From Promicromonospora thailandica (GTDB lineage: Bacteria; Actinomycetota; Actinomycetes; Actinomycetales; Cellulomonadaceae), in assembly GCF_024171955.1 (NCBI RefSeq), contig NZ_JAMTCS010000001.1, positions 248,001-312,000 of the forward strand: a stretch of DNA of 64,000 nucleotides, read 5' to 3'. Made by a program: the position numbers and the translations under genes. This document shows, one piece after another, positions 14,424 to 57,395 of the stretch (position 1 is its first letter; each line of letters starts with the position of its first letter). The notes beneath the pieces are model-generated. The model searched no databases. It was not told where the DNA came from and saw only the letters and a program-made list of their open reading frames with translations.

Positions 14424-14511
14424 CCCGCCGCCGGCCCGCCGGCCCGCCGCGCTCCCGCCGCCACTCCCGCCCCGCCCCCGCCGCCGATCCCCCGCCGATC
14501 CCCCCGATCCC

Positions 14512-14573
14512 CTTCGAGACCGAGGTTGCTTCGCTGTGGGCGGCTCCAAAGCGAAGCAACCTCGGTCTCGAAG
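14512..14573. repeat. long hairpin B, dispersed palindrome copy 1
   Basis: Perfect 24-bp stem, 14512-14535 with 14550-14573, 14-nt loop, between the convergent DUF3054 and rdgB genes. Bases 14501-14532 are identical over 32 nt to the complement of 57360-57391 (hairpin F). Likely works as a bidirectional terminator. The remaining parts of 14424-14668 are C-rich, simple sequence with no gene. Confidence 0.85.
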
Positions 14574-14668
14574 CGGAGCGGCGGCGAGCAGCCGCGCCGG
14601 GGAGGCGCGGGCGGCCGTGTCCGTCGCGGGGGCGCGCTGAGCGCGGCGCCGCGAAGGTGACCCGCCGG

Positions 14669-15316
14669 TCAGGTTGCCGAGGCGGTCAGGGCGTCCAGGA
14701 TCGCCGGGGCCAGCGCGCGGAACGCCTTGCCGCGGTGCGAGATCGCGTTCTTCTCCTGCGGCGACAGCTCGGCGGCGGTGCGTCCGCCGTCCTCGTCGAC
14801 CACGAGGATCGGGTCGTAGCCGAACCCGTTGGTGCCGCGCGGCGCGGTGGCCAGCACGCCCCGCATCTCGCCGAGCTGCACCTCCTCGCGCCCGTCCGGC
14901 GTGACCAGGGCCGCCGCGCAGACGAACCCGGCCTGCCGGTGCTCCGGGCGCACGTCGCCGAGCTGGCCGAGCAGCAGCTCCAGGTTGGCGAGGTCGTCGC
15001 CGTGCCGGCCGGCCCAGCGCGCGGAGAAGATGCCGGGCGCGCCGCCCAGCACGTCGACCGCGAGGCCCGAGTCGTCAGCGACGGCCGGCAGGCCGGTCGC
15101 CGCGCACACCGCGCGGGCCTTGATGAGGGCGTTCTCGGCGAACGTCACGCCGTCCTCCACCGGCTCGGGCGCGCCGACCTCGCCCGAGGTGACCAGTCCG
15201 CCGTCGGCCAGGACAAGGCCGGCGGCCTCGAGGATGGCACGGAGCTCCCCGACCTTCTTGGCGTTGTGGGTCGCGAGGACGATGCGGGCGGCGGGCGGGA
15301 CGTTCAAGGAGGTCAT
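14669..15316 (-). CDS. rdgB: RdgB/HAM1 non-canonical purine NTP pyrophosphatase
   Basis: 215 aa. RIVLATHNAKKVGELRAIL is the N-terminal HAM1 motif that binds the triphosphate, ADDSGLAVDVLGGAPGIFSARWAG the catalytic DDSGL region, FGYDPI and AISHRGKAFR the base-recognition motifs. It hydrolyses dITP, dXTP and ITP to monophosphates and clears damaged precursors. Directly downstream of rph with 39 bases between, the standard actinobacterial order. Confidence 0.95.
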   Translation of the reverse strand: MTSLNVPPAARIVLATHNAKKVGELRAILEAAGLVLADGGLVTSGEVGAPEPVEDGVTFAENALIKARAVCAATGLPAVADDSGLAVDVLGGAPGIFSARWAGRHGDDLANLELLLGQLGDVRPEHRQAGFVCAAALVTPDGREEVQLGEMRGVLATAPRGTNGFGYDPILVVDEDGGRTAAELSPQEKNAISHRGKAFRALAPAILDALTASAT

Positions 15317-15355
15317 GCCCCGATCATGCCAGCCGGCGCGCTCGGGTCCCGCGCC

Positions 15356-16108
15356 TCAGAGCTCGCGGGCCAGCGCGTCCTGCTGGATCTTCGCGAGCTC
15401 CGCGGTGCCGCCCACCGCGAGGTCGAGCAGCGCGTCGAGCTCCGCGCGGTCGAACGGCGCGTGCTCGGCGGTGCCCTGCACCTCGATGAACGTGCCGCCG
15501 CCCGTGACGACCACGTTCATGTCGGTCTCGGCGCGCACGTCCTCGACGTAGGGCAGGTCGAGCATGGGCGTGCCGTCGATGATGCCGACCGAGACGGCGG
15601 ACACCGAGTCGGACAGCACCTCCTTGCCGCCCTTGATGTGACCGTGCCGGCGGCCCCACGCGATCGCGTCGGCGAGGGCCACGTAGGCGCCGGTGATCGC
15701 GGCGGTGCGCGTGCCGCCGTCGGCCTGCAGCACGTCGCAGTCCAGCACGATCGAGTTCTCGCCGAGGGCGCTCATGTCGACGACGGCGCGCAGCGAGCGA
15801 CCGATGAGCCGAGAGATCTCGTGCGTGCGCCCGCCGATCTTGCCCTTCACCGACTCGCGCTGGCTGCGCTCGTTCGTGGCGCGCGGCAGCATCGCGTACT
15901 CGGCGGTGACCCAGCCCTCGCCGGACCCCTTGCGCCAGCGCGGCACGCCCTCGGTGAACGACGCGACGCACAGCACGCGCGTGCGACCGAACTCCACGAG
16001 CACCGAGCCTTCGGCCTCGTCGAGCCAGCCGCGGGTGATGGTCACGGGGCGGAGCTGGTCGGTGGCGCGGCCGTCGGCCCGCACGATGTCGCTGGTGCTG
16101 GAGGTCAT
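15356..16108 (-). CDS. rph: ribonuclease PH
   Basis: 250 aa, the usual family length. [20 protein letters not shown], the RNA-binding N terminus, and [31 protein letters not shown] and [17 protein letters not shown] are conserved phosphorolytic-exoribonuclease motifs. It trims tRNA 3' ends using phosphate. An in-frame extension upstream to 16216 was rejected: the ATG at 16108 begins the conserved domain and has TAGGGT (16116-16121) seven bases upstream, a leaderless start. Confidence 0.95.
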
Positions 16109-16265
16109 GCGGACCACCCTAGCGACGCGCGGGCCGACCGGCGGCCCCGGATCCGGTGGCACCCACCGCTCTGACCTCCTGACCTGGCGAAACGTGGTAC
16201 GCGTCACGCGTGGCACGGCTCACGGGTCGCGGTTGCGGCGCGTTGGGATCGCTAGGCTTCACCCC

Positions 16266-17069
16266 GTGAACGACGCGCCCATCGGGATCTTCGACTCCGG
16301 CCTCGGCGGCCTCACGGTCGCGCGCGCCATCCTGGACCAGCTCCCCAACGAGCAGGTCCGGTACCTCGGCGACACCGCGAACAGCCCCTACGGCCCCAAG
16401 CCGATCGCCGCGGTGCGCGCGATGGCCCTGGACGCCCTGGACCGGCTCGTGGCCGACGGCGTGAAGATGCTGGTCATCGCGTGCAACACGGCGTCGTCCG
16501 CCATGTACCGGGACGCCCGCGAGCGGTACACGCAGCGCCACGGGATCCCCGTCGTCGAGGTCATCCTGCCGGCCGCGCGCGCCGCGGTGACCGCCACCCG
16601 GTCCGGGCGGATCGGCGTGATCGGCACGCGCACCACGATCCAGTCGCGCGCCTACGACGACGCCTTCCACGTCACCCCGGGCCTGTCGATCACCAGCCAG
16701 GCGTGCCCGGAGTTCGTGCGCTTCGTCGAGGAGGGCCGCACGTCCGGCCCCGAGGTGCAGAAGTTCGCGCACGAGTACCTCGACCCGGTCCGGGCGGCCG
16801 GCGTCGACACGCTCGTGCTGGGCTGCACGCACTACCCGCTGCTCGCGGGCGCCATCTCGTACGTGATGGGCGAGGACGTCACGCTCGTCTCCAGCGCCGA
16901 CGAGACCGCCAAGGACGTGTACCGCACGCTCGTGGAGCACGACCTGGAGCGCACCCCCGACGCGGGCGCGCCCGTGCACCGCTTCCTGACCACCGGCGAC
17001 CCGGCCCCGTTCGGTCAGCTCGCCAGCCGGTTCCTCGGCCCCGAGGTGTCCCTCGTGGAGGCCGTCTGA
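16266..17069 (+). CDS. murI: glutamate racemase
   Basis: 267 aa. [39 protein letters not shown] (Cys73) and [11 protein letters not shown] (Cys187) are the paired catalytic motifs, with Asp10 in the first. Makes D-glutamate for peptidoglycan from L-glutamate, cofactor free. The start is GTG at 16266 with TAGGCT at 16253-16258 seven bases ahead: leaderless. Divergent from rph and coupled by a 1-base overlap to the next gene. Confidence 0.96.
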
Positions 17070-17896
17070 TGCGCCTGATCCCCCTCGGGGTCTCCGGGTC
17101 GTTCCCGGGCCCCTCGACGCCCGCGTCCTCCTACCTGGTGCGGGTCACCGCGGCCGAGGCGGCCGCCGCCGGGCACGAGGCCCGCGACTGGAACCTGCTG
17201 CTCGACCTCGGCAACGGTGCCCTCGGTGCCCTGCAGCAGCAGCTGGACCCGATGGCGCTGGACGCCGTGTCGATCTCCCACCTGCACCCGGACCACTGCG
17301 CCGACCTCGCCGGGCTGTACGTCTACCTGCGGTACCACCCGGTGCGGGGCTCGCTGCGGGACGGCGGCCGCGGCGCCCCGCTGCCCGTCTACGGCCCGTC
17401 GACCGCCGGCCGCCACGTCGCGCTGTCCTACGGGCTGAGCGAGGGCGAGTCCATGGCGAACGACTTCGACTTCCGCTCCTGGGCCGAGCACCCGTCGGTC
17501 CAGGTCGGTCCCCTGACGATCGAGCCCTACCGCGTGTTCCACCCCGTCGAGACGTACGGCGTGCGGGTCACCGGCCCGTCGACGGCGGGCGGCACGGCGA
17601 CGCTGGCCTACACGGGCGACACCGACGCCTGCGAGTCCGTGGTCGAGCTCGCACGGGACGCGGACCTGCTGCTGAGCGAGGCGGCGTTCGTGGAGGGGCG
17701 CGACGACGTCGTCGAGCGCGGCATCCACCTGACCGGCCACCGCGCGGGCCGGCTCGCGACCGACGCGGGCGCCCGCCGTCTGCTGCTGACGCACCTGCCC
17801 GTGTGGAACGACCCCGCGGTCTCCCTGGCCGAGGCCCGCGGCGCCTACGCGGGCCCGGTCGACCTGGCCCGCCCGGGCACCCCCTACGACATCTGA
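17069..17896 (+). CDS. MBL-fold metallo-hydrolase (RNase Z-like)
   Basis: 275 aa. SISHLHPDHCADL is the HxHxDH zinc motif; later metal ligands are visible in YRVFHPVETYGV, LAYTGDTDAC and the LLLTHLPVW histidine. The fold is that of RNase Z/arylsulfatase-like MBL enzymes, and its place directly after murI (TGATG overlap) is conserved in actinobacteria, but its substrate is not known. Cytoplasmic, no signal peptide. Confidence 0.88.
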   Translation: MRLIPLGVSGSFPGPSTPASSYLVRVTAAEAAAAGHEARDWNLLLDLGNGALGALQQQLDPMALDAVSISHLHPDHCADLAGLYVYLRYHPVRGSLRDGGRGAPLPVYGPSTAGRHVALSYGLSEGESMANDFDFRSWAEHPSVQVGPLTIEPYRVFHPVETYGVRVTGPSTAGGTATLAYTGDTDACESVVELARDADLLLSEAAFVEGRDDVVERGIHLTGHRAGRLATDAGARRLLLTHLPVWNDPAVSLAEARGAYAGPVDLARPGTPYDI

Positions 17897-17900
17897 CCTG

Positions 17901-18647
17901 TCAGCTGAGCGGACGGCGGCCGCGCAGCTCCGCGAGCATCACGTCCATCAGCGTCTCCTGCGCGTAGCCGGCCGCGACGAACACCCCCGACCAGAACCGC
18001 CGCGCGGCCCGGCCGTCGGTGGCCACCGGGATCTCCCGGCCGGCCTGCCGGTCCCACATGATCTCGTCGGTGAGGTGCATGACCTGCTCGTCGGTCTTCA
18101 GCCCGAGCCGCTCCGCGATCACGAGCCGTACGTCCGTCAGCGCCCCGGCGAACTGCTCGGCGTCCTCGCGCGGGACCCGCACCGGCGGGGGTGCGCCGTG
18201 GCGGCCGAGCGTCGAGGGCGCGTCGCTGGGCAGGTCCAGCAGCGCGGCGAACGCCTCGAGCCGGTCCACCTTCGCCCGCGCGACGTCGTTCTGCGTGAGG
18301 CGGCGGAACTCGCCGGCCAGCTCCGGGTCGTCCTTGCTCGCATCCGGCAGGAGCCGCTGCGCGGCGGGGTCCGTGGGGTGCCGGGCGATCCCGGTCACGC
18401 CGGTCAGGCGGGCCAGGTCGGCGTCGGTGAGCTCGTCGGGGGCGAGCAGGCCGTTGGCCCACGCCTGCCCCTTGCCCGGCCCGGGGTGTGCCGACGGTCC
18501 CGGCTCGCCGCCGTCGTCGAACAGGTCCAGGCCGGCCTCCTCGCGGAGCATGTCCGCGACGTCGCGCGCGACCCGGGCCAGGACCACCCGTTCCACCGGT
18601 TCGAGCCTGGCCTCGTAACCCCGCCGCATGGCGCGGAACGGAGTCAT
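17901..18647 (-). CDS. DUF2017 protein
   Basis: 248 aa, predominantly helical, with the DUF2017 pattern ([23 protein letters not shown] at the start, [20 protein letters not shown] and [18 protein letters not shown] near the end). Function unknown. It overlaps clpS by 4 bases (ATGA); the clpS-DUF2017 pair is widespread in actinobacteria, implying a link with ClpS-dependent proteolysis. It runs into the MBL gene tail-to-tail with only 4 bases between stops. Confidence 0.85.
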
Positions 18648-18985
18648 GCGACTCCCCGTGCGCCGGACTCCTGCAAGGTCGCCCACAACCCGAACCCGTG
18701 CATCGCCTGCACGTCCACCTCCATGCGCTCGCGTCCGCCGCTGGACACGACGGCGCGGCCGTTCTTGTGCACCTGAGTCATCAGCCGCTCTGCCTTGACG
18801 CGCGGGTACCCGAAGTAGCTCTCGAAGACGTACGTCACGTACGACATGAGGTTCACCGGGTCGTTCCAGACGATGGTCACCCACGGATCAGCGACCCCCG
18901 ACACGAGGTCCGCGTCGGTGTCCTCCTCGACGGCCGTCCCGGCTGACCCCAGGGGCGTGAGCAGCGGCGAAGGGGAAGAAGTCAC
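18644..18985 (-). CDS. clpS: ATP-dependent Clp protease adaptor ClpS
   Basis: 113 aa. [25 protein letters not shown] is the N-degron pocket region with the Asn-Asp pair, and [28 protein letters not shown] completes the ClpS core. It delivers N-end-rule substrates to ClpAP/ClpCP. GTG at 18985 is preferred: TAGAGT (complement of 18993-18998) lies 7 bases upstream, a leaderless arrangement. A longer reading to 19036 would run through that promoter. A single DnaA-box-like TTGTCCACA is at 19027-19035. Confidence 0.93.
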
Positions 18986-19093
18986 AGGTCTCACTCTAGG
19001 CGGTTCTGTCCCCGGACTGGACACCCTTGTCCACAATTTTCGCGAAGTTGTCGCCTGGCTGTGACCTGCCGTCCCCGGCCCGTCACGAGCAGG

Positions 19094-20539
19094 TCACCAG
19101 GTGGCGTCCAGGCGCAGGTCGACGGTCGGGATGGCCGGGTCGCCGGCCGACAGCCTGCGTGCTCCGCGCGGCAGCTCGGCGCGCACCATGCCGTGGTTGA
19201 TGGCCGCGTTCGCCACCCCGTACGGCCCGACCCAGCGGGAGTCGACGGCCCCGTCGACGACCATCGGCGCGAGCAGCGGACGCAGGTCGTCGCTCTGCGG
19301 CGTCCACTCCGCCACGGCCGTGTCCGGGCCGGTCACCATGATCTCCTCGATCGCGTGCCCGTCCCGGCCGTACCGGCGCGCGGCGGCCTTGCGCCCGCCC
19401 CGGGAGGCCTTGTTCGCGGACGCCTTCGCCACGGGCTGGAGCACGCCCGACGCGTCGGCGCGGGCCACGAGCTTGTAGACCATGCCGCAGGTCGGCGCCC
19501 CCGACCCGGTCACGACCGACGTGCCGACGCCGTACACGTCCACCGGCGCGGCGGCCAGCGACGCGATGGCGTACTCGTCCAGGTCCGAGGTGACCACGAT
19601 CTTGGTGTCCCGCGCCCCGAGCCCGTCGAGCTGGCGGCGCACCTCCTGCGCCAGGCCGCTCAGGTCGCCCGAGTCGAGGCGCACGGCACCCAGCCCGGTG
19701 CCCGCCACCTCGACCGCGGTGGCCACGCCCTGCTTCACGTCGTACGTGTCCACCAGGAGCGTCGTGCCGGGGCCGAGCGCGGCCACCTGGGAGACGAACG
19801 CGTCCCGCTCGCTGTCGTGCAGCAGCGTGAACGAGTGCGCGGCGGTGCCGATCGTGTCCAGCCCGTACCGCATGCCCGCCTCGAGGTTGGACGTGCCGGC
19901 GAAGCCGCCGATCACGGCCGCCCGGGCCGCCGCGACCGAGGCCTGCTCGTTCGCGCGCCGCGAGCCCATCTCCAGCACGGGCCGCCCGCCGGCGGCGCTC
20001 GTCATGCGCGACGCCGCGGAGGCCACCGCCGAGTCGTAGTTCAGGATCGACAGGATCAGGGTCTCCAGCAGCACCGCCTCGGCGAAGCTGCCCTCCACCT
20101 GCAGCACGGGCGAGCCCGGGAAGAACACCTCCCCCTCGGCGTAGCCCTGGATGGTGCCCGAGAACCGGTAGTCGGCGAGGTAGTCGAGAGTCCTGCGGTC
20201 CACCACGCCGTTGTCCTCGAGATACGCCAGCTCGGCGTCCTCGAACGTGAAGTGTGGCAGCGCTTCCAGGACACGACCGGTGCCCGCCAGGACGCCGTAG
20301 CGGCGCCCGGCCGGCAGCCGACGCGTGAACACCTCGAACACGCAGTGCCGGTGCGCCGTCCCGTCCGCCAGGGCGGCCTGGAGCATGGTCAGCTCGTAGC
20401 GGTCGGTCAGCAGCGCCACGGAAGGGCGCACCGCCGGAAGGGGTGCTGCGGGAAGCGGCCGAGGCTCGTCGACACCGTTGTCGAACGCAGGCCACGAGTC
20501 TGTGAGCGGGGCGCCGATGCCCCGGAGCTCGTCGGTCAT
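19094..20539 (-). CDS. pncB: nicotinate phosphoribosyltransferase
   Basis: 481 aa. LLTDRYELTMLQAALADG is the N-terminal motif, RRANEQASVAAARAAVIGGFAGTSNLEAG and TLLVDTYDVKQGV and AVRLDSGDLSGLA form the PRPP/nicotinate site, and GVGTSVVTGSGAPTCGMVYKLV the C-terminal part. Converts nicotinate and PRPP to NaMN in NAD salvage. TACCGT (20546-20551, complement) is six bases before the ATG: leaderless. Confidence 0.95.
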   Translation of the reverse strand: MTDELRGIGAPLTDSWPAFDNGVDEPRPLPAAPLPAVRPSVALLTDRYELTMLQAALADGTAHRHCVFEVFTRRLPAGRRYGVLAGTGRVLEALPHFTFEDAELAYLEDNGVVDRRTLDYLADYRFSGTIQGYAEGEVFFPGSPVLQVEGSFAEAVLLETLILSILNYDSAVASAASRMTSAAGGRPVLEMGSRRANEQASVAAARAAVIGGFAGTSNLEAGMRYGLDTIGTAAHSFTLLHDSERDAFVSQVAALGPGTTLLVDTYDVKQGVATAVEVAGTGLGAVRLDSGDLSGLAQEVRRQLDGLGARDTKIVVTSDLDEYAIASLAAAPVDVYGVGTSVVTGSGAPTCGMVYKLVARADASGVLQPVAKASANKASRGGRKAAARRYGRDGHAIEEIMVTGPDTAVAEWTPQSDDLRPLLAPMVVDGAVDSRWVGPYGVANAAINHGMVRAELPRGARRLSAGDPAIPTVDLRLDATW

Positions 20540-20630
20540 GCACTCACGGTAGGCCAGAGAACCGGCCCAGGTAGTGCGAACCGGGGCGTGGCGCCGTTGT
20601 GTCTCAGCATGCGGATCGTGGCGCTCGCCA

Positions 20631-22735: not shown

Positions 22736-22905
22736 GCCGAGAAGTCTACGCGGGACCACCGACAGGCACGGCGCGGGCGACGCGTCCCGACGTGTTCACC
22801 GACCGGTTCCCGTGCAGGTCACGGCGCGTTTCCGCACCTCCCGCCGGGAATCGCCCGCCGGGAATTCCTTGCGGGCGTGTCGGTGGGCACCGCTATAACT
22901 GACGC

Positions 22906-24333
22906 ATGCCACGACCCCGCCCCGAGAGGAGCCTCACCCTGCCCGACGACGCCCCGCCCCGCCCCGCACCCGACCCAGACCTCGCCGCCACGCTGTCCGC
23001 CGCCCTGCCCGTCGCCCTGGCCGACGGGCTGCCCGGCGGCCTGCCCGGAGTGGACTGGCCCGACTTCGGCGACCACGACGACTGCGCCCGCCGGGCGGTG
23101 GCCGCCGTGGCCGCGATGCTCGGCCGGCCCGTCCCCGAGCGCCCGAAGGACCCGCGCACGTCGGCCGAGTGGCTCGCCCGCCGCTGGGACGTCGACGAGA
23201 GCGCGCTGGTCAACGTCTCGCGCGACATGTCGCGCACGCTCCAGCGCCTGCACGGGTACGCGCTCCAGCGGTGGATCGACCGGCACGCGGACGACGTGGC
23301 CGTGTTCGGACCGGGCGGGGCGCCCCAGCGCGCGGCCCTCGACCTGGGCAACGGCACCTCGGTGAGCGTCCCGGCGGTGGCGACCGTCCTCTTCCCGGCC
23401 GGGTCGGCGTACGACTCGGCCGTGGCTGTGGAGGTCGCCTACCGGTACGGCACCCCGACGGTCACCGCCTTCACGCCGCCGGGCGGGCTCGCCCTCGCCG
23501 AACGGGTGCTGGCCGACCTCACCCGGACCCTGGAGACGGACCACCCGTACCGCGGCGGCGTGCTGTCGGCGCGGTCGTCGACCGGCTCGGTCGAGCTCAC
23601 CCCCGTCACGCACACCCCGCAGGCCCGCGGCGACGTCGTGCTGCCCGCCGACCTGTGGCGCGAGGTGGACCTGTTCTGCTCCAGCGTCACGACCCGCCGC
23701 GACGCGCTGCGGGCCCTGGGCCACACCACGTCCCGCGGCCTGCTGCTCGCGGGCCGGCCCGGTGTGGGCAAGACCAAGCTCGCGCGCGTGATCGCCACCG
23801 AGCTGGCCGGGCCGCTCACGGTCGTGCTCGTCACCGCCGAGGTGCTGCGCACCTGGATGACCGAGCTGTACGACGAGATCCGCGGCCTGGGGCCGTGCCT
23901 GGTGGTGCTGGAGGAGATCGACTCGGTGGCCGCCAAGGGGTCGCGCGGCGACACCTCGTTCGCGGAGTTCCTGGACGCCCTGGACGGCACCCGCAGCTCC
24001 GACGACGTGCTCACGCTCGCCACCACGAACGACCCGGATGCCCTCGACCCGGCGGTCAAGCGTCCCGGGCGCTTCGACACCATCGTGGAGGTACCCCCGC
24101 CCGACCAGGACGGCCGCACGGAGATCCTGCGGCTCTTCCTGCCGCCGGGCACGCCGGTCGACGTCGCGCTCGTCGCGTCCTTCCTGGACGGCGCCACGGG
24201 CGCGGACCTGCGCGAGGTGGCGCGGCGCTCGATCCTGGAGCACGGCCCCGACGACCTGACGACCGAGCGCGTGGCCGACGTGGCGACGTCCGGCCGCTGG
24301 AAGCCCGCCCCGGTCGCGGGCAACTACCTCTGA
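22906..24333 (+). CDS. stand-alone AAA+ ATPase with novel N-terminal domain
   Basis: 475 aa. The AAA core is in the second half: Walker A LLAGRPGVGKTKLARV (about residue 283), Walker B CLVVLEEIDSVAAKG, sensor 1 LATTNDPDALDPA and arginine-finger region KRPGRFDTIVEV, closest to the FtsH/Bcs1/proteasome-ATPase group. Residues 1-250 contain no transmembrane helix or protease domain that I recognise; WLARRWDVDESALVNVSRDMSRTLQRL and a beta-rich stretch follow. No protease or partner gene is adjacent. TATAAC (22894-22899) with TTGCGG upstream gives a leaderless promoter with ATG at 22906. Function unknown; a remodelling or unfolding role is inferred. Confidence 0.85.
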   Translation: MPRPRPERSLTLPDDAPPRPAPDPDLAATLSAALPVALADGLPGGLPGVDWPDFGDHDDCARRAVAAVAAMLGRPVPERPKDPRTSAEWLARRWDVDESALVNVSRDMSRTLQRLHGYALQRWIDRHADDVAVFGPGGAPQRAALDLGNGTSVSVPAVATVLFPAGSAYDSAVAVEVAYRYGTPTVTAFTPPGGLALAERVLADLTRTLETDHPYRGGVLSARSSTGSVELTPVTHTPQARGDVVLPADLWREVDLFCSSVTTRRDALRALGHTTSRGLLLAGRPGVGKTKLARVIATELAGPLTVVLVTAEVLRTWMTELYDEIRGLGPCLVVLEEIDSVAAKGSRGDTSFAEFLDALDGTRSSDDVLTLATTNDPDALDPAVKRPGRFDTIVEVPPPDQDGRTEILRLFLPPGTPVDVALVASFLDGATGADLREVARRSILEHGPDDLTTERVADVATSGRWKPAPVAGNYL

Positions 24334-24381
24334 CGTGTCAGACGCTCAGGTCACCCGGGTGACCTGAGCGTCTGACACGTC
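24332..24381. terminator. 50-bp perfect palindrome C
   Basis: A 25+25 bp inverted repeat with no spacer, centred on CACCCGGGTG, starting inside the stop codon of the AAA+ gene and ending 18 bases before the stop of the convergent nagB gene. As RNA it would fold into a long hairpin on either strand and so serve both genes as terminator. Confidence 0.85.
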
Positions 24382-40837: not shown

Positions 40838-40846
40838 GCGTGAAGG

Positions 40847-41213
40847 GTGGAGCTGCCGGGAATCGAACCCGGGTCCGGTATCGGTTTTCGAGGACTTCTC
40901 CGGGCGCAGTCTGCTATGGATTTTCTCGGCCCCCGCGCTCGCGCAGACACGTTCGCGGACAGGCCCAGTCACCTGAGAGTCCCCGCAGCCCCGATGACGA
41001 GGGCTACGAGCAGTGGCTTTCTAGATGACGCGGGTTACCGGAGCGAAAGCAGACTCCGGGCCCACGGACTTCGGGCTCGCTCAGGCGGCGAGGGCGAAGT
41101 CGTTGCGCGAGTTATCGGCAACTATTGGTTTACAGGCATCGTTAACGAGATAAGCCTGCATCCTCGGCCCGCTTCTCCTCGAAGCACGACCACCGTCGAA
41201 ACCGATCAGCCCC
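40847..41213 (-). ncRNA. ssrA: transfer-messenger RNA (tmRNA)
   Basis: The 5' end GGGGCTGATCGGTTTCGAC and 3' end with T arm GGGTTCGATTCCC and CAGCTCC acceptor strand form the tRNA-like part; the acceptor stem pairs with one G-U. The tag frame at 41081-41119 (complement) encodes ADNSRNDFALAA then TGA, the actinobacterial degradation tag. CCA is not encoded. It rescues stalled ribosomes with SmpB, encoded immediately upstream on the same strand. Confidence 0.97.
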
Positions 41214-44239: not shown

Positions 44240-44240
44240 G

Positions 44241-46777: not shown

Positions 46778-46845
46778 CGAGGTCGGTCCGCCGTCGCGAG
46801 ATCGGTCCAGGCCTGTGCCGATCTCGAGACGACGGACCGACCTCG
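46778..46845. terminator. long hairpin D
   Basis: 28-bp arms 46778-46805 and 46818-46845 with two mismatches (G-U pairs possible in RNA) and a 12-nt loop, 12 bases after the TadG-like gene stop. Likely its terminator; both flanking genes are on the minus strand. Confidence 0.75.
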
Positions 46846-48877: not shown

Positions 48878-48934
48878 TGAGTGCTGGACATCCGCCCTCC
48901 CGCCACGCGCAGGAGGGCGGATGTCCAGCACTCA
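48878..48934. terminator. long hairpin E
   Basis: Perfect 23-bp stem (48878-48900 with 48912-48934) and 11-nt loop between the convergent xylanase and TadE genes. Confidence 0.8.
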
Positions 48935-48941
48935 CCCGGGT

Positions 48942-49771: not shown

Positions 49772-49965
49772 CCCTGACCCGTGACGCTGCTGATCGCCTG
49801 CCGGAAGGCGTTCTCCAGGAGTGGTCCGGCGACGGCCCAGAGCGCGACGACGAGACCCGCGGTCATCAACGTGACGAGCACCCAGCCGGGCACGTCGCCG
49901 CGCTCGTCCGGTCCCTCGCTCGGGTCCTGGTCGGGGGTGGGGTCGGGCGTGTTGTCATGGCGCAT
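49768..49965 (-). CDS. Flp/DUF4244-like pilin
   Basis: 65 aa: an acidic leader (about 22 residues), then ERGDVPGWVLVTLMTAGLVVALWAVAGPLLENAFRQAISSV. Charged leader plus hydrophobic helix with helical tail is the design of actinobacterial Flp-type pilins (DUF4244). Probably the major pilin; prepilin peptidase is not in the window. Confidence 0.7.
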   Translation of the reverse strand: MRHDNTPDPTPDQDPSEGPDERGDVPGWVLVTLMTAGLVVALWAVAGPLLENAFRQAISSVTGQG

Positions 49966-50005
49966 GGCGCTTCCTTTCGTCGGCCGTGCCGTCCGGCGGG
50001 CCGTC

Positions 50006-50923: not shown

Positions 50924-51777
50924 CGCAGCACCCGGCGCTCGGCGGGCAGACGCCCGATGCGGAGCATCACGCGGTAGGCGACCAGGGCGCACGCGCCGCC
51001 CACCACGAGCACCGCGATGCCGGCGGGCGTGTCGTAGGCCGCGGCCGTGCCCGGCCGCGTGCACAGGAGCGCCAGCACCACCCACGGCCCGGCGACGGCC
51101 ACCCGGGCCCCGTTCACGGTCCAGCTCTGCCGGGCCTCCAGCTCGCCGCGGGTCGCGGCGTCCTCCCGGAGGAACCCGCTGAGCGTGCGCAGGAGCCTGC
51201 CCAGGTCCTGGCCGCCGACCTCGCGCGTGAGGCGCAGCGCCTCGACGATGCGGTCGGCGACCGGGTCGGCCAGACGTTCCTTGAGGGCGTCGAGGGCGTC
51301 CCCGAACCGCCCGTCGGTCCGGTAGTCGTGGGCGAAGCGCGCGAAGGGCTCGCGCAGCTCCGCCGGGCCGCGCCGGCCGAGCAGTGCCAGCGCCTCGGGC
51401 AGGGACAACCCGGCCCGCACGCCGGACGCGAGATGGTCCACCACCTCGGGCCACACCTCCCGCAACGCCCGACGGCGGCGCCGGGCGCGGGCGCGCACCA
51501 GGACGACCGGCCCGGGCGCGGCGAGCAGCGCGAAGCAGCAGGCGATGGCGGGCGAGCGGGTCAGCGCGAGGCCCAGCAGCAGCGTCACGGTGCCGAGTGC
51601 GACGCAGGAGCCCACGAGCATCGCGGGAGTCACCGTCGGGGCGCCGGCCTGGACGAGGAGGTCGCGCGTGCGCATCTGCCACGTCACGCGACCGGCAGGT
51701 CGTGGCGTGGGTGCCCAGAACGACCACCAGACGCAGAACGCGCCGGCTCCCAGGAGCAGGCCGAGGGCGACGCCCAT
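50920..51777 (-). CDS. tadB: Tad secretion membrane protein TadB
   Basis: 285 aa. N-terminal helix, two helices near 40-75, a cytoplasmic type II secretion F domain (WPEVVDHLASGVRAGLSLPEALALLGRRGP, LRLTREVGGQDLGRLLRTLSGFLREDAATR), and two C-terminal helices. Start ATG at 51777 shares a base with the tadA stop. Confidence 0.9.
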   Translation of the reverse strand: MGVALGLLLGAGAFCVWWSFWAPTPRPAGRVTWQMRTRDLLVQAGAPTVTPAMLVGSCVALGTVTLLLGLALTRSPAIACCFALLAAPGPVVLVRARARRRRRALREVWPEVVDHLASGVRAGLSLPEALALLGRRGPAELREPFARFAHDYRTDGRFGDALDALKERLADPVADRIVEALRLTREVGGQDLGRLLRTLSGFLREDAATRGELEARQSWTVNGARVAVAGPWVVLALLCTRPGTAAAYDTPAGIAVLVVGGACALVAYRVMLRIGRLPAERRVLR

Positions 51778-53525
51778 CAGCGGGCCGCCCCTGCGCCCGC
51801 GTCCGTGCCCGTCCCTGCGCCCGTCCCCGCGCCGGGCCCTGCGTCCGTCCCTGCGTCCGTCCACGGCCCGGCCCCCGTCCACCGCTCCGCACCCGACCAC
51901 GGCCCAGCGGCTGCACGGGGCGCGATCCCTGCCCAGGGACCGGTCGTCGCCCCGTGCGCGGCGGCGGGCGGCACGGCGGCGGGCTCGGCGGCGGCCGGCT
52001 CTGCGGGCGCCGGCTCTGCGGCAGCGGGCAGCACGGCGGCGGGCTCCGCGGCAGCGGGCGGCACGGCAGCGGGCTCCGCCGCGGCCGGCTCCACGGCAGC
52101 GGGCCACACCGGCGAGCCGCCCGGCACCGTCCCCTTCCCGCGCGATCCGGCCGGGCCACCCGGGACAACCGCTGCGGCCAGACCGGCCAGACCGGCCGGA
52201 CCAGCCGGCACGGCCGGCCGGACCGGGCCACCCCACCCGGCCGGGCCGGCCGGGTCCGCGCCGCCCGCCAGGACCGGAACACCCCGCCCCGCGAGCAGCG
52301 CCCGTACGTCGAACCCCGCCCGCTCGAACCGGTCCTCCCCCGGTGGCATGCCGTCCCCGCGCCGCAGGTCCCCGTCGGGCGACCGGTCGTAGATCCCGGC
52401 GGTCTCGATACGTCCTTCCTCGACCCGGCCGGTCACCGCGACGATCTCCCGCACCTGCCGCCGCACCACGCCGTCCGCCGAACGGCTCAGGCCGAGGTGC
52501 ACCACGAGGTCCACGGCCGACGCGACGGTCGGCACCACGAACCGGTCCGAGACGTTCTCGCCGGCCAGCAGCGGCAGCGTCGTCATCTTGGCCACGGCCT
52601 CACGCGCGGTGTTGGCGTGCAGCGTGCACATGCCGGGCACGCCGCTGTTCAGCGCGATGAGCAGGTCGAACGCCTCGGCCTCACGGACCTCGCCGATCAC
52701 CAGCCGGTCGGGACGCATCCGCAGCGCCTCCTTGACCAGCCGCCGCAGGGGCACCTCGCCCGTGCCCTCCAGGCTCGGCGGCCGCGTCTGCAGCGCCACG
52801 TGGTCGCGGACCGGCAGGCGCAGCTCCCAGACCTCCTCGGCCGAGATGACCCGCTCCGTGCCCGGGATCGACCCGGCGAGGGCGTTGAGCATCGTCGTCT
52901 TGCCGGCCTGGGTCTGGCCGGACACGAGCACGTTGAGGCCCGCTCGCACCGCGGCGTCGAGGAAGGCCGCCGCCTGGGCGGTCAGCGACCCGAGCCGCAC
53001 AATGTCCGCGAGCGAGTGCGCGCGCACCACGTGCTTGCGGATGTTCACCGCCATCTCGCCCCCGGTCATCTCGGGGATCACGACGTGCAGCCGCTCCCCG
53101 CCCGGCAGGCGCGCGTCGACGAACGGGCTCGACAGGTCGAGGCGGCGACCGGAGGTCTTGAGCATGCGTTCCACCAGGTCGCGCACCTGCTCGCGGGTGA
53201 GCACGGTGCTCGTCAGCTCCGCGGCGCCCCGCCGCGCGACGTACACGTGGGTCGGGGCGTTGAGCCAGATCTCCTCGATCTCCGGGTCGTCGAGGTACGG
53301 CTGCAGCGGCCCGAAGCCGCCGACGGCGTCGCTCACCGCCCGGGCCGCCGCCTCCGGGTCCGCGAGCGGCGGTACCACGCCCGCGCTCGCCCGCGTCGCG
53401 TAGTCGCCCACCGCGTCCGTCACGAGGCTCGACAGCCCCGCCCGGTCACCCACCGGGTCCAGCCCCCTGCGCCGCACCAGCTCGCGCACCTCGTGCTCGA
53501 GGATGCGCGCCCCCTCATCGCCCAT
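51777..53525 (-). CDS. tadA: Tad pilus ATPase TadA/CpaF
   Basis: 582 aa. The CpaF ATPase is in residues 1-430: IEEIWLNAPTHVYVARRG, Walker A NVLVSGQTQAGKTTMLNALAGS, ERVISAEEVWELRL, Asp box-like LVKEALRMRPDRLVIGEVREAEAFDLLIALNSG, and ATP-site THANT-like TLHANTAREAV. It powers pilus assembly. Residues about 430-582 are a low-complexity tail of Ala/Pro/Glu then Gly/Ala/Thr repeats, unusual for CpaF. Start ATG at 53525: TAGCGT is eight bases upstream. No TadZ-like gene precedes it. Confidence 0.9.
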   Translation of the reverse strand: MGDEGARILEHEVRELVRRRGLDPVGDRAGLSSLVTDAVGDYATRASAGVVPPLADPEAAARAVSDAVGGFGPLQPYLDDPEIEEIWLNAPTHVYVARRGAAELTSTVLTREQVRDLVERMLKTSGRRLDLSSPFVDARLPGGERLHVVIPEMTGGEMAVNIRKHVVRAHSLADIVRLGSLTAQAAAFLDAAVRAGLNVLVSGQTQAGKTTMLNALAGSIPGTERVISAEEVWELRLPVRDHVALQTRPPSLEGTGEVPLRRLVKEALRMRPDRLVIGEVREAEAFDLLIALNSGVPGMCTLHANTAREAVAKMTTLPLLAGENVSDRFVVPTVASAVDLVVHLGLSRSADGVVRRQVREIVAVTGRVEEGRIETAGIYDRSPDGDLRRGDGMPPGEDRFERAGFDVRALLAGRGVPVLAGGADPAGPAGWGGPVRPAVPAGPAGLAGLAAAVVPGGPAGSRGKGTVPGGSPVWPAAVEPAAAEPAAVPPAAAEPAAVLPAAAEPAPAEPAAAEPAAVPPAAAHGATTGPWAGIAPRAAAGPWSGAERWTGAGPWTDAGTDAGPGAGTGAGTGTDAGAGAAR

Positions 53526-53569
53526 GGCCGACAACGCTAGAGCCAAATGTTCACCCGCGCAGGCCACCC

Positions 53570-53627
53570 TGTGGATAACTTTCCCCACGAGGCAGGGTTA
53601 TCCACCGAATCCACAGCGTTGTCCACA
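53570..53627. promoter_or_regulatory. DnaA-box cluster
   Basis: Three DnaA boxes in 58 bp: complement of 53570-53578 (TTATCCACA, perfect), 53598-53606 (TTATCCACC, one mismatch) and 53619-53627 (TTGTCCACA, the actinobacterial form). They fill the 177-bp space between tadA and the aminotransferase. A DnaA-binding or titration site is implied; it is not an oriC by context. Confidence 0.7.
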
Positions 53628-53702
53628 AAAGCGCAGGTCAACCGGGTTGCCCGGGATGTCGGGACCCGGTCGCGTGTGGGAGGCGGTGGCTATGGTCGTC
53701 CC

Positions 53703-54959
53703 ATGGAAGACTCCCCCGCACCCCGCACCGACCCGGCAGGCCGCGGCCCCGACCGCTGGCAGCACACCGCGAGCGCCGCCGGTCTGCTGGCCGACGACGG
53801 CAGCGTCGCCGTGACGATCTTCGCCGAGATGTCGGCCCTCGCCGTGCGCACCGGTGCGATCAACCTCGGCCAGGGTTTCCCCGACGTCGACGGCCCGGAG
53901 TACGTCAAGCAGGCGGCGGTCCGCGCGATCGAGGAGGGCCGCAACCAGTACGCCCCGGGCGACGGCGTGCCCGAGCTGCGTCGTGCGGTGGCCGCGCACC
54001 AGAAGCGGCACTACGGCCTCGACGTCGACCCGGACACCGAGGTGCTGGTGACCACGGGGGCCACCGAGGCGCTCACGGCGTCGATCCTGGCGCTGACCCG
54101 GCCCGGTGACGAGGTGCTCACGCTGGAGCCGTTCTACGACTCGCACGCGGCGGCGATCGGCATGTCGGGCGCCACCCACGTGACCGCGCCCCTCGTGCCC
54201 GGACCGGACGGCTTCCGCCTCGACGTCGAGGCGCTGCGGGCCGCCGCCTCGCCGCGGCTGCGGATGATCGTGCTCAACTCGCCGCACAACCCCACGGGCA
54301 CGGTGCTCACGCCCGGTGAGCTGGCGGCCGTCGCCGCGGTGGCCCGCGAGCGGGACGCGATCGTCGTGACCGACGAGGTCTACGAGCACCTCACCTTCGG
54401 CGCGGAGCACGTCCCGATGGCCACGCTGCCCGGCATGGCGGAGCGGACGCTGACCATCTCGTCTTCGGGCAAGACGTTCTCGTTCACCGGCTGGAAGGTG
54501 GGCTGGGTGCACGGTCCCGCCACCCTGGTCACGGCGGTGCGCACCGTCAAGCAGTTCCTCACCTACACCTCGGGCGCACCGTTCCAGCCCGCGATCGCCC
54601 TCGCCCTGGACGACGACGAGACGCCGCGCGCCCTCGCCGCGTCGCTGGCCGAACGCCGCGACCTGCTGTGCGCGGGCCTGGAGGCCGCCGGGTTCACGGT
54701 CACGCGCCCGGCCGGCACGTACTTCGTGATGGCCGATGCCACGGAGCTCCTGCCCCGCCTCGGCCTGCGCGACGGGGTGGAGCTGTGCCGCAGGCTGCCC
54801 GAGCTCGCGGGCGTCGTGGCCATCCCCGCCACGGCCTTCTGCCGCGCGGGTTCTCCGACTGCGCGGGCCCTGGCGAACCACGTGCGCCTCACGTTCGTCA
54901 AGCGTGAGGACGTGCTGCGCGAGGCGGTCACGCGGCTCGCGGCGCTGCGGCAGGCGTGA
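53703..54959 (+). CDS. PLP-dependent aminotransferase, class I/II
   Basis: 418 aa. INLGQGFPDVDGPEYVKQAAVRAI, NQYAPGDGVPELRRAVA, LNSPHNPTGTVLTPGEL, VVTDEVYEHLTF and TISSSGKTFSFTGWKVGWVHG (PLP Lys in SGKTFS) follow the aspartate aminotransferase fold, nearest the methionine/kynurenine (YbdL/CCBL) branch. Substrate uncertain. The ATG at 53703 has TATGGT six bases upstream, leaderless. Convergent with the LysE gene (4 bases between stops). Confidence 0.92.
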   Translation: MEDSPAPRTDPAGRGPDRWQHTASAAGLLADDGSVAVTIFAEMSALAVRTGAINLGQGFPDVDGPEYVKQAAVRAIEEGRNQYAPGDGVPELRRAVAAHQKRHYGLDVDPDTEVLVTTGATEALTASILALTRPGDEVLTLEPFYDSHAAAIGMSGATHVTAPLVPGPDGFRLDVEALRAAASPRLRMIVLNSPHNPTGTVLTPGELAAVAAVARERDAIVVTDEVYEHLTFGAEHVPMATLPGMAERTLTISSSGKTFSFTGWKVGWVHGPATLVTAVRTVKQFLTYTSGAPFQPAIALALDDDETPRALAASLAERRDLLCAGLEAAGFTVTRPAGTYFVMADATELLPRLGLRDGVELCRRLPELAGVVAIPATAFCRAGSPTARALANHVRLTFVKREDVLREAVTRLAALRQA

Positions 54960-54963
54960 CGGG

Positions 54964-55584
54964 TCAGCCGCCGGCCAGGAGCGAGACGGCCACCGCGAGC
55001 ATGATCAGGGCGATCACGCCGTCCAGCACTCGCCACGCGCCAGGGCGCCGCAGCACGGGGGCCAGCAGGCGCGCGCCGTAGGCGAGCCCGGCGAACCACG
55101 CGACGCTGGACGCCATGGCGCCCGCGGCGAACCACCACCGGGCGTCGCCGTAGGTCGCGGCGACCGACCCCTGCAGCACCACGGTGTCGAGGTACACGTG
55201 GGGGTTGAGCCAGGTCAGCGCGAGCGCCGTGAGCACCACCGGCTTGAGGCGGCGGCCGGGCCGGTCGCCGAGGTCGCCGTCCTGCGCCGCGGTCAGCGCG
55301 GCGGCGCCCCGCACGGCTCGCCACGCGGCCATGGCGCCGTACCCGAGCACGACGGCGGCGCCCAGCCAGCGCACGACGACGACGGCGTCGGGCCAGCGCT
55401 CGACGAGCGGACCGAACCCGGCAGCACCCGCGGCGTACAGAGCCACGTCGGACACCGCGCAGATGCCGGCCACGACGCCCACGTGCTCACGGCGCAGGCC
55501 CTGACGGAGCACGAACGCGTTCTGGGCTCCGATGGCGACGATGAGCGAGAGACCGAACCCGAGTCCGGCGAGCAGGGTGAGCAT
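54964..55584 (-). CDS. LysE/ArgO-family amino acid exporter
   Basis: 206 aa, six helices. GFGLSLIVAIGAQNAFVLRQGLRREHV and TALALTWLNPHVYLDTVVLQGS are the LysE signatures. Exports lysine, arginine or analogues. ATG at 55584, not the GTG at 55593: TAGCGT (complement) is 7 bases before the ATG and overlaps the GTG. Divergent from a LysG-type regulator. Confidence 0.92.
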   Translation of the reverse strand: MLTLLAGLGFGLSLIVAIGAQNAFVLRQGLRREHVGVVAGICAVSDVALYAAGAAGFGPLVERWPDAVVVVRWLGAAVVLGYGAMAAWRAVRGAAALTAAQDGDLGDRPGRRLKPVVLTALALTWLNPHVYLDTVVLQGSVAATYGDARWWFAAGAMASSVAWFAGLAYGARLLAPVLRRPGAWRVLDGVIALIMLAVAVSLLAGG

Positions 55585-55619
55585 GTCCGCCACGCTAGGC
55601 AGGCCACCGACCTGAAGAC

Positions 55620-55654
55620 CAGTTCATGTTTCTACGTCGGCCTAAGCAGAACTG
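55620..55654. promoter_or_regulatory. inverted repeat in the lysE-lysG intergenic region
   Basis: CAGTTC (55620-55625) and GAACTG (55649-55654) are inverted with 23 bases between, in the 90-bp gap between the divergent exporter and regulator starts. Possible LysG binding region; spacing differs from the T-N11-A core of LysR-type sites. Confidence 0.35.
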
Positions 55655-55674
55655 AAGATGGTAGACACTGGGGC

Positions 55675-56583
55675 ATGCGATGGGACTCCCGACAGCTCGA
55701 GGCACTGGCCGCCGTCGTCGCCGAAGGGTCGTTCGACGCCGCGGCCCGGGTGCTGCACGTGACGCCGTCGGCCGTCAGCCAGCGCATCCGGTCGCTGGAG
55801 AGCGCGGCCGGCAGCGTGCTGGTGCGGCGCGCCCGGCCCGTCGTGGCCACGGCGTCCGGCCAGACGCTGCTGCGCCTGGCGCGGCAGACCGAGCTGCTCG
55901 GCGCGGAGGTGGCCGCCGAGCTCGGGGCCGACGACGCTGCCCCGCACCGGTCCGGCGGTTTCGTCACCGTGCCCCTGGCGGTCAGCGCCGACTCGCTGGC
56001 CACGTGGGTGCTGCCCGCCCTGGCCCAGGTCGAGGGCGTCACGTTCGACCTGCACCGCGCCGACGACAGCCGCACCGCGGACCTGCTCCGCGAGGGTGTG
56101 GTGATGGCCGCCGTGACCTCACAGACCGCCCAGGTGCAAGGCTGCCGCAGCACCCCGCTGGGCATCATGCGCTACCGCCCCGCGTGCACCCGGGCCTTCG
56201 CGCGGCGCTGGTTCCCGCACGGGCCCACGCCCGCCGCCCTGGGACGGGCGCCCGTGGTGGTCTTCGACCGGGCCGACGACCTGCAGGACACCTACCTGCG
56301 CGAACGGGCGCCGTCCGCCCGCCCGCCGCGGCACCACGTACCGAGCACCGTCGAGTACGAGGAGATGATCCGCCTCGGACTGGGCTGGGGCATGCTGCTG
56401 GAGCGGCCGTCCGTGGGCGGGCTCCCGGACGACGGTGGAGACCGCGGGATCACGCCCCTGGAGCCGCGCAAGGTACTCGACATCACGCTGCACCTGCAGC
56501 AGTGGAAGCTGCGCTCCGCGGTGCTCGACCGAGTGGCCCACGCGCTGCGAAAAGAAGCAACACGGGAACTGCTTCCGGCGTGA
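55675..56583 (+). CDS. LysG/ArgP-type LysR transcriptional regulator
   Basis: 302 aa. N-terminal wHTH (WDSRQLEALAAVVAEGSFDAAARVLHVTPSAVSQRIRSLE), then a LysR substrate-binding domain. Order lysE-lysG divergent is that of the Corynebacterium lysine-export system, where LysG activates lysE with lysine or arginine. A second lysE follows on the same strand. TAGACA is seven bases before the ATG. Confidence 0.93.
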   Translation: MRWDSRQLEALAAVVAEGSFDAAARVLHVTPSAVSQRIRSLESAAGSVLVRRARPVVATASGQTLLRLARQTELLGAEVAAELGADDAAPHRSGGFVTVPLAVSADSLATWVLPALAQVEGVTFDLHRADDSRTADLLREGVVMAAVTSQTAQVQGCRSTPLGIMRYRPACTRAFARRWFPHGPTPAALGRAPVVVFDRADDLQDTYLRERAPSARPPRHHVPSTVEYEEMIRLGLGWGMLLERPSVGGLPDDGGDRGITPLEPRKVLDITLHLQQWKLRSAVLDRVAHALRKEATRELLPA

Positions 56584-56680
56584 AATCTGGACGTACCCCC
56601 ATCATTAACCCTGATCCAGTCGTTCTGCACTTCCGAATCATGAACCGGACATCCGCTGCCCGACTTCTTACCGTTCGAGC

Positions 56681-57286
56681 ATGCTTTCCGCGCTCGCCGG
56701 CATGGCTTTCGGTCTGTCGCTCATCGTCGCAGTGGGGGCACAGAACATCTTCGTGCTCCGTCAGGGCCTGCGCCGCGAACACGTGGGGCTGGTCGCCGGG
56801 ATCTGCGCGGTCAGCGACTTCGTGCTCATCTCCGCGGGGGTCGGCGGGCTGGGCTCGCTGATCCAGAGCGCGCCCCTCGTGGTCGAGATCGCCCGGTGGG
56901 CTGGAGCCGTCGTGGTGCTGGCGTACGGCGCCATGGCCGCCACCCGCGCGGTGCGGGGTCAGCGCGTGGTGATGGGCCGGCACAGCGTCACCAACCGGAC
57001 CGTCCGCGCCGCCGTGGCCACCACGCTCGCCCTGACCTGGCTCAACCCGCACGTGTACCTCGACACCGTGGTGCTGGTGGGCGGGCTCGCCGCCACGCAC
57101 GGCGACGACCGTTGGTGGTTCGGCCTCGGCGCCTGCGTGGCGAGCACGGTCTGGTTCGTCGCGCTGGGCTACGGCGCCCGGTACCTGGCGCCGCTCCTGG
57201 AGCGGCCGGGCGCCTGGCGGGTGCTGGACAGCGTCGTCGCGGTCACCATGGTGCTGGTCGCGGCGTCCCTGATCCTGTCGGCCTGA
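56681..57286 (+). CDS. LysE/ArgO-family amino acid exporter, second copy
   Basis: 201 aa with the same motifs as the 54964-55584 protein (GMAFGLSLIVAVGAQNIFVLRQGLRREHVGLVAGICAVSD and LALTWLNPHVYLDTVVLVGG) but clearly diverged over its length, so this is an old duplication or independent gain. Own leaderless promoter: TACCGT ends six bases before the ATG at 56681. Position just after lysG suggests LysG may control both. Confidence 0.92.
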   Translation: MLSALAGMAFGLSLIVAVGAQNIFVLRQGLRREHVGLVAGICAVSDFVLISAGVGGLGSLIQSAPLVVEIARWAGAVVVLAYGAMAATRAVRGQRVVMGRHSVTNRTVRAAVATTLALTWLNPHVYLDTVVLVGGLAATHGDDRWWFGLGACVASTVWFVALGYGARYLAPLLERPGAWRVLDSVVAVTMVLVAASLILSA

Positions 57287-57315
57287 CCGCCCTCTGCGCC
57301 TGACCCGCTGAGCCT

Positions 57316-57383
57316 CCCCTTCGAGACCGAGGTTGCTTCTCTTTCAGGCGGCTGAAAGAGAAGCAACCTCGGTCTCGAAGGGG
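57316..57383. repeat. long hairpin F, dispersed palindrome copy 2
   Basis: Perfect 32-bp stem (57316-57347 with 57352-57383) with a 4-nt GCGG loop, between the convergent second lysE and LCP genes. Bases 57360-57391 on the complement are identical over 32 nt to 14501-14532. Likely bidirectional terminator and member of a dispersed repeat family. Confidence 0.9.
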
Positions 57384-57395
57384 ATCGGGGGCGGG

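Follow-up and report, generated by a model that had tools for sequence, protein, structure and literature searches.

REP-like 60-bp palindromes at gene ends in Promicromonospora: a candidate RAYT-independent family

Described systems of dispersed palindromes

Dispersed palindromes in bacterial genomes are commonly attributed to RAYT transposases or to selection for terminators. Among the described systems, the REP and REPIN elements resemble the palindromes of the genus Promicromonospora analyzed here in being short, dispersed, intergenic, and of species-specific types, and in lying mostly between convergent or co-directional genes, near gene 3′ ends, according to the accessible parts of two accounts (PMC3733652, PMC8049555). 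The Promicromonospora palindrome differs from them in having neither a detectable RAYT/Y1 enzyme nor a one-sided tag, in being 60 bp long, near-perfect, and of near-constant length, and in belonging to Actinomycetota—the word Actinobacteria being absent from the main text of PMC3733652 in its accessible form. Petrillo and co-workers have also described intergenic stem-loops that recur and are enriched at 3′ ends; in the accessible rows of their survey, the high-GC species include Corynebacterium and Mycobacterium, but not Promicromonospora, and, unlike here, fixed length, dialects, and concerted change are absent from the accessible parts of that description (PMC1590033, PMC2267715). Species-specific motif spelling and inverted pairs at gene ends are likewise known, from the excerpts available, for uptake-sequence dialects and uptake-signal terminators (PMC3630211, PMC1852404), whereas the Promicromonospora arms among the matches listed occur almost only paired, at fixed spacing, and the copies are far fewer. 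Quasipalindrome correction, or template-switch mutation, as presented in the accessible parts of PMC8794818 and PMC7202029, accounts for paired arm changes and loop inversion, but does not on its own account for likeness between distant copies.

The first-pass annotation had recognized no named family with this sequence, and the searches agree: at the gathering score, Rfam returned only tmRNA and tRNA in the window (the whole 64,000-nucleotide stretch of P. thailandica DNA analyzed), with the sub-threshold matches at one of the two palindromes, copy F, being mostly microRNA precursors—that is, generic long hairpins—and a literature search of titles and abstract openings yielded no account of a palindrome family of this kind from Promicromonospora.

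The window copies and their relatives in the host genome

The window contains two 60-bp palindromes without strand assignment: copy B at 14513–14572, with arms at 14513–14532 and 14553–14572 and a central 20 nt at 14533–14552, and copy F at 57320–57379, with arms at 57320–57339 and 57360–57379 and a central 20 nt at 57340–57359. The stems initially reported, of 24 contiguous pairs for copy B (14512–14573) and 32 contiguous pairs for copy F (57316–57383, uninterrupted), were recovered, as was the 32-base identity between 14501–14532 and the complement of 57360–57391, which stops at both sides. With its imperfect outer stem, which takes in the TC..C / G..GA part of the outer consensus, copy B extends over 14504–14581; copy F with its outer stem spans 57315–57384 and, when the additional inverted sequence to its left and right is counted, 57288–57411, the repeat then having 60-nt arms that are 87% complementary. 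The convergent setting described for both copies was also confirmed. Copy B is preceded by a DUF3054 gene (14031–14423, + strand) that stops 89 nt ahead of it and followed by a Ham1/RdgB family gene (14669–15316, − strand), and copy F lies between a LysE-type translocator gene (56681–57286, + strand), which stops 33 nt ahead, and a LytR-CpsA-Psr family gene (57396–58703, − strand). The loops had been called completely different, which is correct for the letters of the central 20 nt, but not for their length, equal in 53 of 54 own-genome copies, nor for their outer positions, which are largely complementary. Folding of the + strand RNA gave −66.6 kcal/mol (z −9.7) for copy B and −90.0 kcal/mol (z −14.5) for copy F, with none of 200 shuffles being as good, and a 22-base arm with up to three mismatches matched the window four times, versus no match in each of 100 shuffles.

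The proposal that the two copies belong to a dispersed family is borne out by the host genome, in which arm matches numbered 63 forward and 64 reverse, versus 0 and 2 for a reversed control. Rather than just two copies, the genome holds about 60, of which 54 were fetched; these are sited at gene 3′ ends, with none lying within a called gene, and an origin of the arm identity in spread or conversion, not chance, is supported. A search for 17-mer pairs allowing spacings of 4–40 nt found a spacing of exactly 20 nt in 53 of the 54 copies. Nearly all arms among the matches listed had a partner with at most two mismatches at the standard spacing; the exceptions among the exact arms listed were one without a partner (C10:20458) and one with its partner one base closer (C7:86963). 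In an alignment of 53 own-genome copies, a symmetric outer TC/GA pair was observed to be conserved (T in 45 and C in 48 of the 53). The exact own-genome arm had no match in a genome-contig collection possibly lacking the own genome, and a 121-base query around copy F matched no phage or plasmid record.

Length, siting, and arm spelling across species

From 11 species, 167 copies were read; of these, 163 were 60 bp long, three were 62 bp long, with one additional base pair in each arm, and one was 59 bp long—a uniformity that, like the pairing, is possibly overstated because the relatives' copies were taken as best model matches or in a CTTCGAG frame and because the palindrome finder required 74% pairing. 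Two fetched copies missed by the finder (L241 and L256) were also 60-bp palindromes by eye, and one class with a different interior keeps the same length. Of 165 classifiable copies, 96 lay at convergent junctions (versus 45 of 345 other neighbor pairs), 65 after a co-directional gene, four at divergent junctions, and none inside a called gene; at least one gene ends ahead of 161 of them, with a median stop-to-copy distance of 35 nt. The palindrome is abundant in some species (G000, G004, G008, G010, and G011) and scarce in others, the model search having given 0, 2, and 7 matches in G005, G006, and G007, respectively. Some of the junctions occupied by a copy in one species hold an unrelated palindrome, or none, in another. 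At the copy F junction, seven of the 11 relatives in which both genes were found have 3–39 nt and no such palindrome, and in G008 a short 36-nt palindrome overlaps a gene end; with the palindrome absent from those seven, 3′-end siting could mean tolerance rather than use.

The spelling of the arms is species-specific and has changed on both arms alike. Arm positions 6, 9, 11, 15, and 18 showed 91–97% Watson–Crick pairing across 161 copies, compared with 44–62% when partners were shuffled, and symmetric variants numbered 100 versus 35.5 expected; past the core, outer pairing was slight (5.76 matches in 15, versus 5.30 with shuffled partners and a maximum of 5.63 in 200 shuffles). The arm distance per 40 nt was 2.9 between copies of one species, 6.0 for the 35 pairs at orthologous junctions, and 7.0 between non-orthologous copies of different species. 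Thus, a copy resembles the others of its own species more than its counterparts at the same junction elsewhere, indicative of concerted evolution. For the close species G002 and G003, the palindromes were 93% identical and their 40-nt flanks 73% identical (nine pairs). Furthermore, counting outside the letters fixed by the finder, positions 8 and 17 were invariant in all 322 arms of the 161 copies and six others were at least 98% constant, suggestive of sequence-specific recognition over neutral homogenization.

Competing explanations and a proposed mechanism

The observed copy number, near-constant length, 3′-end residence, species spellings shared by both arms, and concerted evolution, together with the failure to detect a Y1 (RAYT) transposase, are best explained, with about even confidence in the explanation as a whole, by gene-end palindromes that form a REP-like family independent of RAYT and are homogenized by a putative DNA-level process. 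The window pair would be members of this dispersed family of non-coding DNA palindromes, fixed in length at 60 bp and belonging to the genus Promicromonospora. The family would behave in a REP-like manner, with many intergenic copies at 3′ ends, which are passed on in place but are at times lost or supplanted by a palindrome of another family.

The involvement of a RAYT (Y1 HUH) transposase, the route of spread first suggested, was not upheld. The palindromic, intergenic, multi-copy nature, 3′-end bias, and species-specific types would all suit REP/REPIN elements, but Y1_Tnp (PF01797) was found in none of 13 genus genomes (a control search being positive in five of 14 well-known genomes), no GTAG or CGTC tag occurs at one end in the 53-copy alignment, and 60 bp exceeds the 20–40 bp stated for REPs in the accessible part of PMC3733652; with two family searches ruling out a RAYT link for the genus, barring a divergent HUH enzyme missed by the Pfam model, this origin is very improbable. 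With respect to a MITE reading, no gene flanked by arms was found among the matches listed, and the intergenic flanks are too diverged to show target duplication. Least probable of all are DNA uptake sequences in inverted pairs, although the species dialects and gene-end placement bear a likeness to those of Neisseriaceae uptake sequences in the available text (PMC3630211, PMC1852404); this candidate was rejected, as the 63 and 64 arm matches in the genome are, among those listed, nearly all paired and almost never single, the copies number about 60 versus a thousand or more, and the repeat unit is 20–30 nt versus 9–12.

A distinctly more plausible, if still doubtful, alternative is that the palindromes are ordinary bidirectional intrinsic terminators, kept paired by RNA-hairpin selection alone and sharing letters through old copying. 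A stable hairpin after a gene end, as expected of an intrinsic terminator, is present: a gene end precedes 161 of the 165 copies, at a median of 35 nt from the stop, and the folding energies of the window copies lie between −66 and −90 kcal/mol. The unrelated palindromes that occupy some of these junctions in sister species would also suit this reading because terminators would be interchangeable parts. However, no U-tract follows the stem (mean T fraction of 0.10 over the next 12 nt at 65 co-directional sites), and a terminator scan reported no site using the whole palindrome. Sense-strand mismatches at co-directional sites, counted as standing mismatches with a home-made gene caller, comprised 25 G-U and 27 A-C, with no G-U excess, whereas the reconstructed intermediates of Bacillus cereus terminators comprised 68 G-U and eight A-C in the accessible part of that study (PMC5381666). 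Arm polarity was absent (93 variants in the 5′ arm and 90 in the 3′ arm at 63 co-directional sites), and convergent copies were not clearly better conserved (2.55 versus 2.90 variants per site). Thus, as U-tract, G·U preference, and arm polarity are all lacking, RNA selection alone seems not to keep the arms paired; the near-exact 60-bp length and within-species uniformity would, moreover, be needless for termination. A variant in which each arm would carry an intrinsic terminator of its own, overlapping that of the other arm, with 14-nt mini-hairpins (CTTCG-AGAC-CGAGG) and the T-rich tracts after them standing face to face, was judged unlikely and rejected: although all five pairs are intact in 103 of 104 own-genome arms and the T fraction behind the mini-hairpin is 0.51–0.67 in the 11 species examined, the scan flagged both strands of copy F but not copy B, most arms of other species keep only four of the five pairs, and the 93 and 90 variants show no preference for the arm that would act. 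About as tentative as ordinary terminators is a putative binding site of a sequence-specific DNA protein (a dimer or hairpin binder) with specificity varying by species, like uptake dialects for palindromes. The constant letters across the genus outside those imposed by the finder, including positions 8 and 17, the conserved outer TC/GA pair, the equal length in the class with a different interior, and the species-specific spellings argue for such a site; the convergent-junction bias, unexpected for a plain binding site, the free central positions, and the small number of copies argue against it.

In the RAYT-independent family favored here, a transcribed copy would fold into a highly stable hairpin, terminating or protecting transcripts and, at convergent junctions, acting on both strands; the palindromes probably serve as 3′-end hairpins or bidirectional terminators. 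At the DNA level, template switching (quasipalindrome correction) may restore arm symmetry within a copy. Systematic loop inversion was not seen among 44 orthologous pairs: the direct orientation was closer in 23, the inverted one in nine, and 12 were tied, a single exact inversion being present, between G002 and G003. Template switching leaves the likeness between distant copies unexplained. That likeness may be kept by inter-copy exchange and/or one sequence-specific trans-acting factor, which would recognize a palindrome of this length, and new copies would be made by some putative copying mechanism. A bolder and appreciably less probable version has a putative factor recognizing or measuring the 60-bp DNA hairpin, copying it into gene ends, and rewriting the genome's copies to the current spelling, with unrelated palindrome families competing for the same gene-end sites.

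Neither usual explanation fits these palindromes well: the genus has yielded no RAYT-type enzyme, the stems lack a U-tract, and RNA-level pairing selection has left no sign. Promicromonospora would offer a clean natural system for studying palindrome copying, the upkeep of perfection, and homogenization, and also for asking if long hairpins lacking U-tracts serve to end transcription in high-GC Actinomycetota. The near-constant length and concerted arm changes hold across the 11 species read, and diverged relatives of the palindrome occur in a number of other genera belonging to the same family as Promicromonospora.

Copy number, anatomy and gene context

The palindromes at 14513-14572 (copy B) and 57320-57379 (copy F) were confirmed by sequence comparison in the window to share 32 identical bases, to form stems of 24 and 32 pairs, respectively, and to be each flanked by convergent genes, as described in the first-pass annotation; shuffled sequence yielded no match of like strength. 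The dispersed family proposed there is likewise borne out, since the genome (5.38 Mb in 24 contigs) holds not two copies but about 60 sites, from which 54 distinct copies were fetched (a duplicate row, L079, being left out). A 17-base arm with up to three mismatches gave 63 forward and 64 reverse matches (reversing the pattern as a control gave 0 and 2), a palindrome pattern search gave 54, and a covariance model built from an alignment of 53 own-genome copies gave 120 among 150 scored candidates, both strands combined, corresponding to the 60 or so sites.

The family unit is TTCGAGACCGAGGTTGCTTCGCTNTGA, 6 nt and the reverse complement, 60 bp in all, flanked by a less conserved outer TCNNC/GNNGA. 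With spacings of 4-40 nt allowed and copies chosen by arm letters, the 17-mers were separated by exactly 20 nt in 53/54 own copies and by 19 nt in the other; in the former 53, several variable stem positions form Watson-Crick pairs more often than expected from independence. Three contigs (C9, C11, and C12) showed no exact-arm match among the matches listed; each would be longer than 220 kb if contig numbers follow length rank, and the family may be unevenly spread. Two copies with different loops lie 150-750 bp apart at several junctions or neighborhoods of the relative G010 (L126, L136, L140, L141, and L142), and such pairs also occur in the own genome (L042 and L065), which suggests hot junctions or local duplication.

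Genes were called with a codon-based caller written for this analysis. It assigned 26 own copies to convergent junctions, 27 to co-directional junctions, and 1 to a divergent junction, with none inside a gene. Across 11 species, 165 of 167 copies were classifiable (96 convergent, 65 co-directional, and 4 divergent), in agreement with the placement at gene ends originally proposed; other neighbor pairs in the same stretches were convergent in 45/345 cases (Fisher p ~2e-25 versus copies; pairs from two-copy stretches enter twice). The median distance was 35 nt to the upstream stop and 99 nt to the downstream start. The sense strand after the hairpin is poor in T (fraction 0.10), and the family is therefore not a U-tract terminator. 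Termination or 3'-end protection would be its likeliest use to the host.

Spread, length and species dialects

The own-genome model matched 12/13 genus genomes, with 0, 2, and 7 matches in G005, G006, and G007, respectively, and 58 to at least 150 in the other nine relatives. Under stricter filters, matches were found in 31/160 genomes and 7/25 genera of the family, 11 of these 31 genomes belonging to the genus itself, and in 8/297 genomes of the order, the own genome counted. The version in genus g23 is CGAGAACGAGGTTGCGGTCG (L106 of G053 and L108 of G034). Among 79 stretches listed, the named records that hold a sister spelling were Promicromonospora.

A length-free finder (50-72 bp) returned 165 copies from 152 stretches, and two missed own copies (L061 and L067) brought the set to 167. 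Of these, 163 are 60 bp, three are 62 bp—with one additional base pair in each arm—and one is 59 bp, a uniformity that may be overstated, with relatives' copies drawn from the best model matches or a frame list and 74% pairing required. L241 and L256, 60-bp palindromes by eye, failed the finder's start motif and were left out. One counted copy, L220, represents a second class that shares the outer frame and differs in its interior; among the matches listed in a frame search (gaps 36-60), this class keeps the same 62-base spacing from CTTCGAG to CTCGAAG in G001 and G007, and palindromes with the shared frame and a different interior occur in G006 and G007.

The consensus arm varies among species, for instance GAGACCGAGGTTGCTTC in the own genome and GAGACCTAAGTTTCTTC in G010, with GAGGTCTAAGTTTCTCC common to the close relatives G002 and G003. 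In 161 copies, variable arm positions 6, 9, 11, 15, and 18 are 91-97% Watson-Crick paired, versus 44-62% when shuffled. All 322 arms carry the same letter at position 8 and the same letter at position 17; this is also true of positions 0, 1, and 4, but the letters of the latter were imposed by the finder. Within species having at least six copies, 100 changes affect both arms versus 35.5 expected, alongside 163 one-armed changes. Between species, 44 same-junction copy pairs with both flanking genes matched were taken as orthologous, 35 of them outside G002-G003. Arm distance per 40 nt was 2.9 within a species, 6.0 for these 35 pairs (Wilcoxon p 0.0005 versus same-species), and 7.0 for non-orthologous copies (p 0.013 versus orthologous); thus, sites are inherited, but spelling follows the species, a pattern of concerted evolution.

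Turnover at junctions was followed in the close pair G002-G003, whose 36 copies include nine without placement in the available DNA of the other species (eight with no match, one not collinear); the rest represent 17 junctions, of which 14 carry the family palindrome in both species, one has in its place, by eye, an unrelated palindrome in the second species, and two lack the family palindrome in one species, one of them with an apparent remnant. In nine pairs, identity was 93% for the palindromes, 73% for nearby flanks, and 60% for an unrelated control. At the gene gap holding copy F, the family is present in the own genome only, among the 12 genomes in which this junction could be located (G004 yielded no left gene); another palindrome family (TGTCAGAC...GTCTGACA) occupies it in G010 and G011 and, by eye, in G005 and G012, and 3-39 nt separate the genes in 7/12. 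The gap holding copy B carries the family in the own genome and G001, a second family in G002, G005, and G012, a third in G010 and G011, a further one in G007, and none in the other five genomes; no left gene was located in G006, and its placement in G001 was not clean.

Nature and classification of the element

If selection acted on RNA pairing, the sense strand at co-directional sites should tolerate G-U better than A-C. At these sites, no G-U excess was found (25 G-U versus 27 A-C, mismatches of other kinds numbering 36; G-U share with a 95% interval of 0.34-0.62); for Bacillus cereus terminators, a related comparison of reconstructed intermediates is reported as 68 versus 8 (PMC5381666). 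The two arms are equally conserved, with 93 upstream and 90 downstream variants at 63 co-directional sites, and copies at convergent junctions show no clear gain in conservation (2.55 variants per copy, n = 87, versus 2.90, n = 63). The element thus has the appearance of a symmetric DNA object. Identical arms can arise by template switching, a known mechanism (PMC8794818, PMC7202029), and the one exact loop inversion seen fits it; template switching leaves the likeness between loci unexplained.

The link to REP palindromes and their RAYT transposases raised in the first-pass annotation found no support: Y1_Tnp was found in 0/13 genus genomes, and the REP-type tag is absent from the 53 aligned own-genome copies. 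Thus, although its distribution is like that of REP families, the family fails two of their defining features and is not classed as REP. A DNA uptake sequence was rejected on the own-genome arm matches listed. Rfam gave no match at gathering score, and phage and plasmid records gave none for a 121-base query around copy F. This is a real, sizeable dispersed palindrome family of near-constant length with species dialects, and apparently a previously undescribed one.

Other palindromes and RNA genes nearby

A second dispersed palindrome family, with core TGTCAGAC-3-CAGGTCACC..., lies between convergent genes at 24332-24381; its pattern matches 21 times on the forward strand of the own genome, reaches up to 181 matches in G010, and is present in 12/13 genus genomes. 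Other strong palindromes in the window lie at 46778-46845, 48878-48934, 795-863 (within a called glycosyltransferase-like gene), and 60173-60213, with none in three Markov-shuffled windows; on visual comparison, that at 48878-48934 (TGAGTGCTGGACATCC...) is similar to palindromes of G010 (L142) and G002 (L361). A general hairpin scan of the own genome and relatives, grouped by eye, gave additional families of the GAGATCGGTC, CTGCTGCCAG, and TGTTGC...GCAACA types, each in at least two species (stretches L153, L151, L149, L148, L154, L139, L032, and L096). An Rfam scan of the window placed a tRNA gene at 604-685 and a tmRNA gene at 40845-41213.
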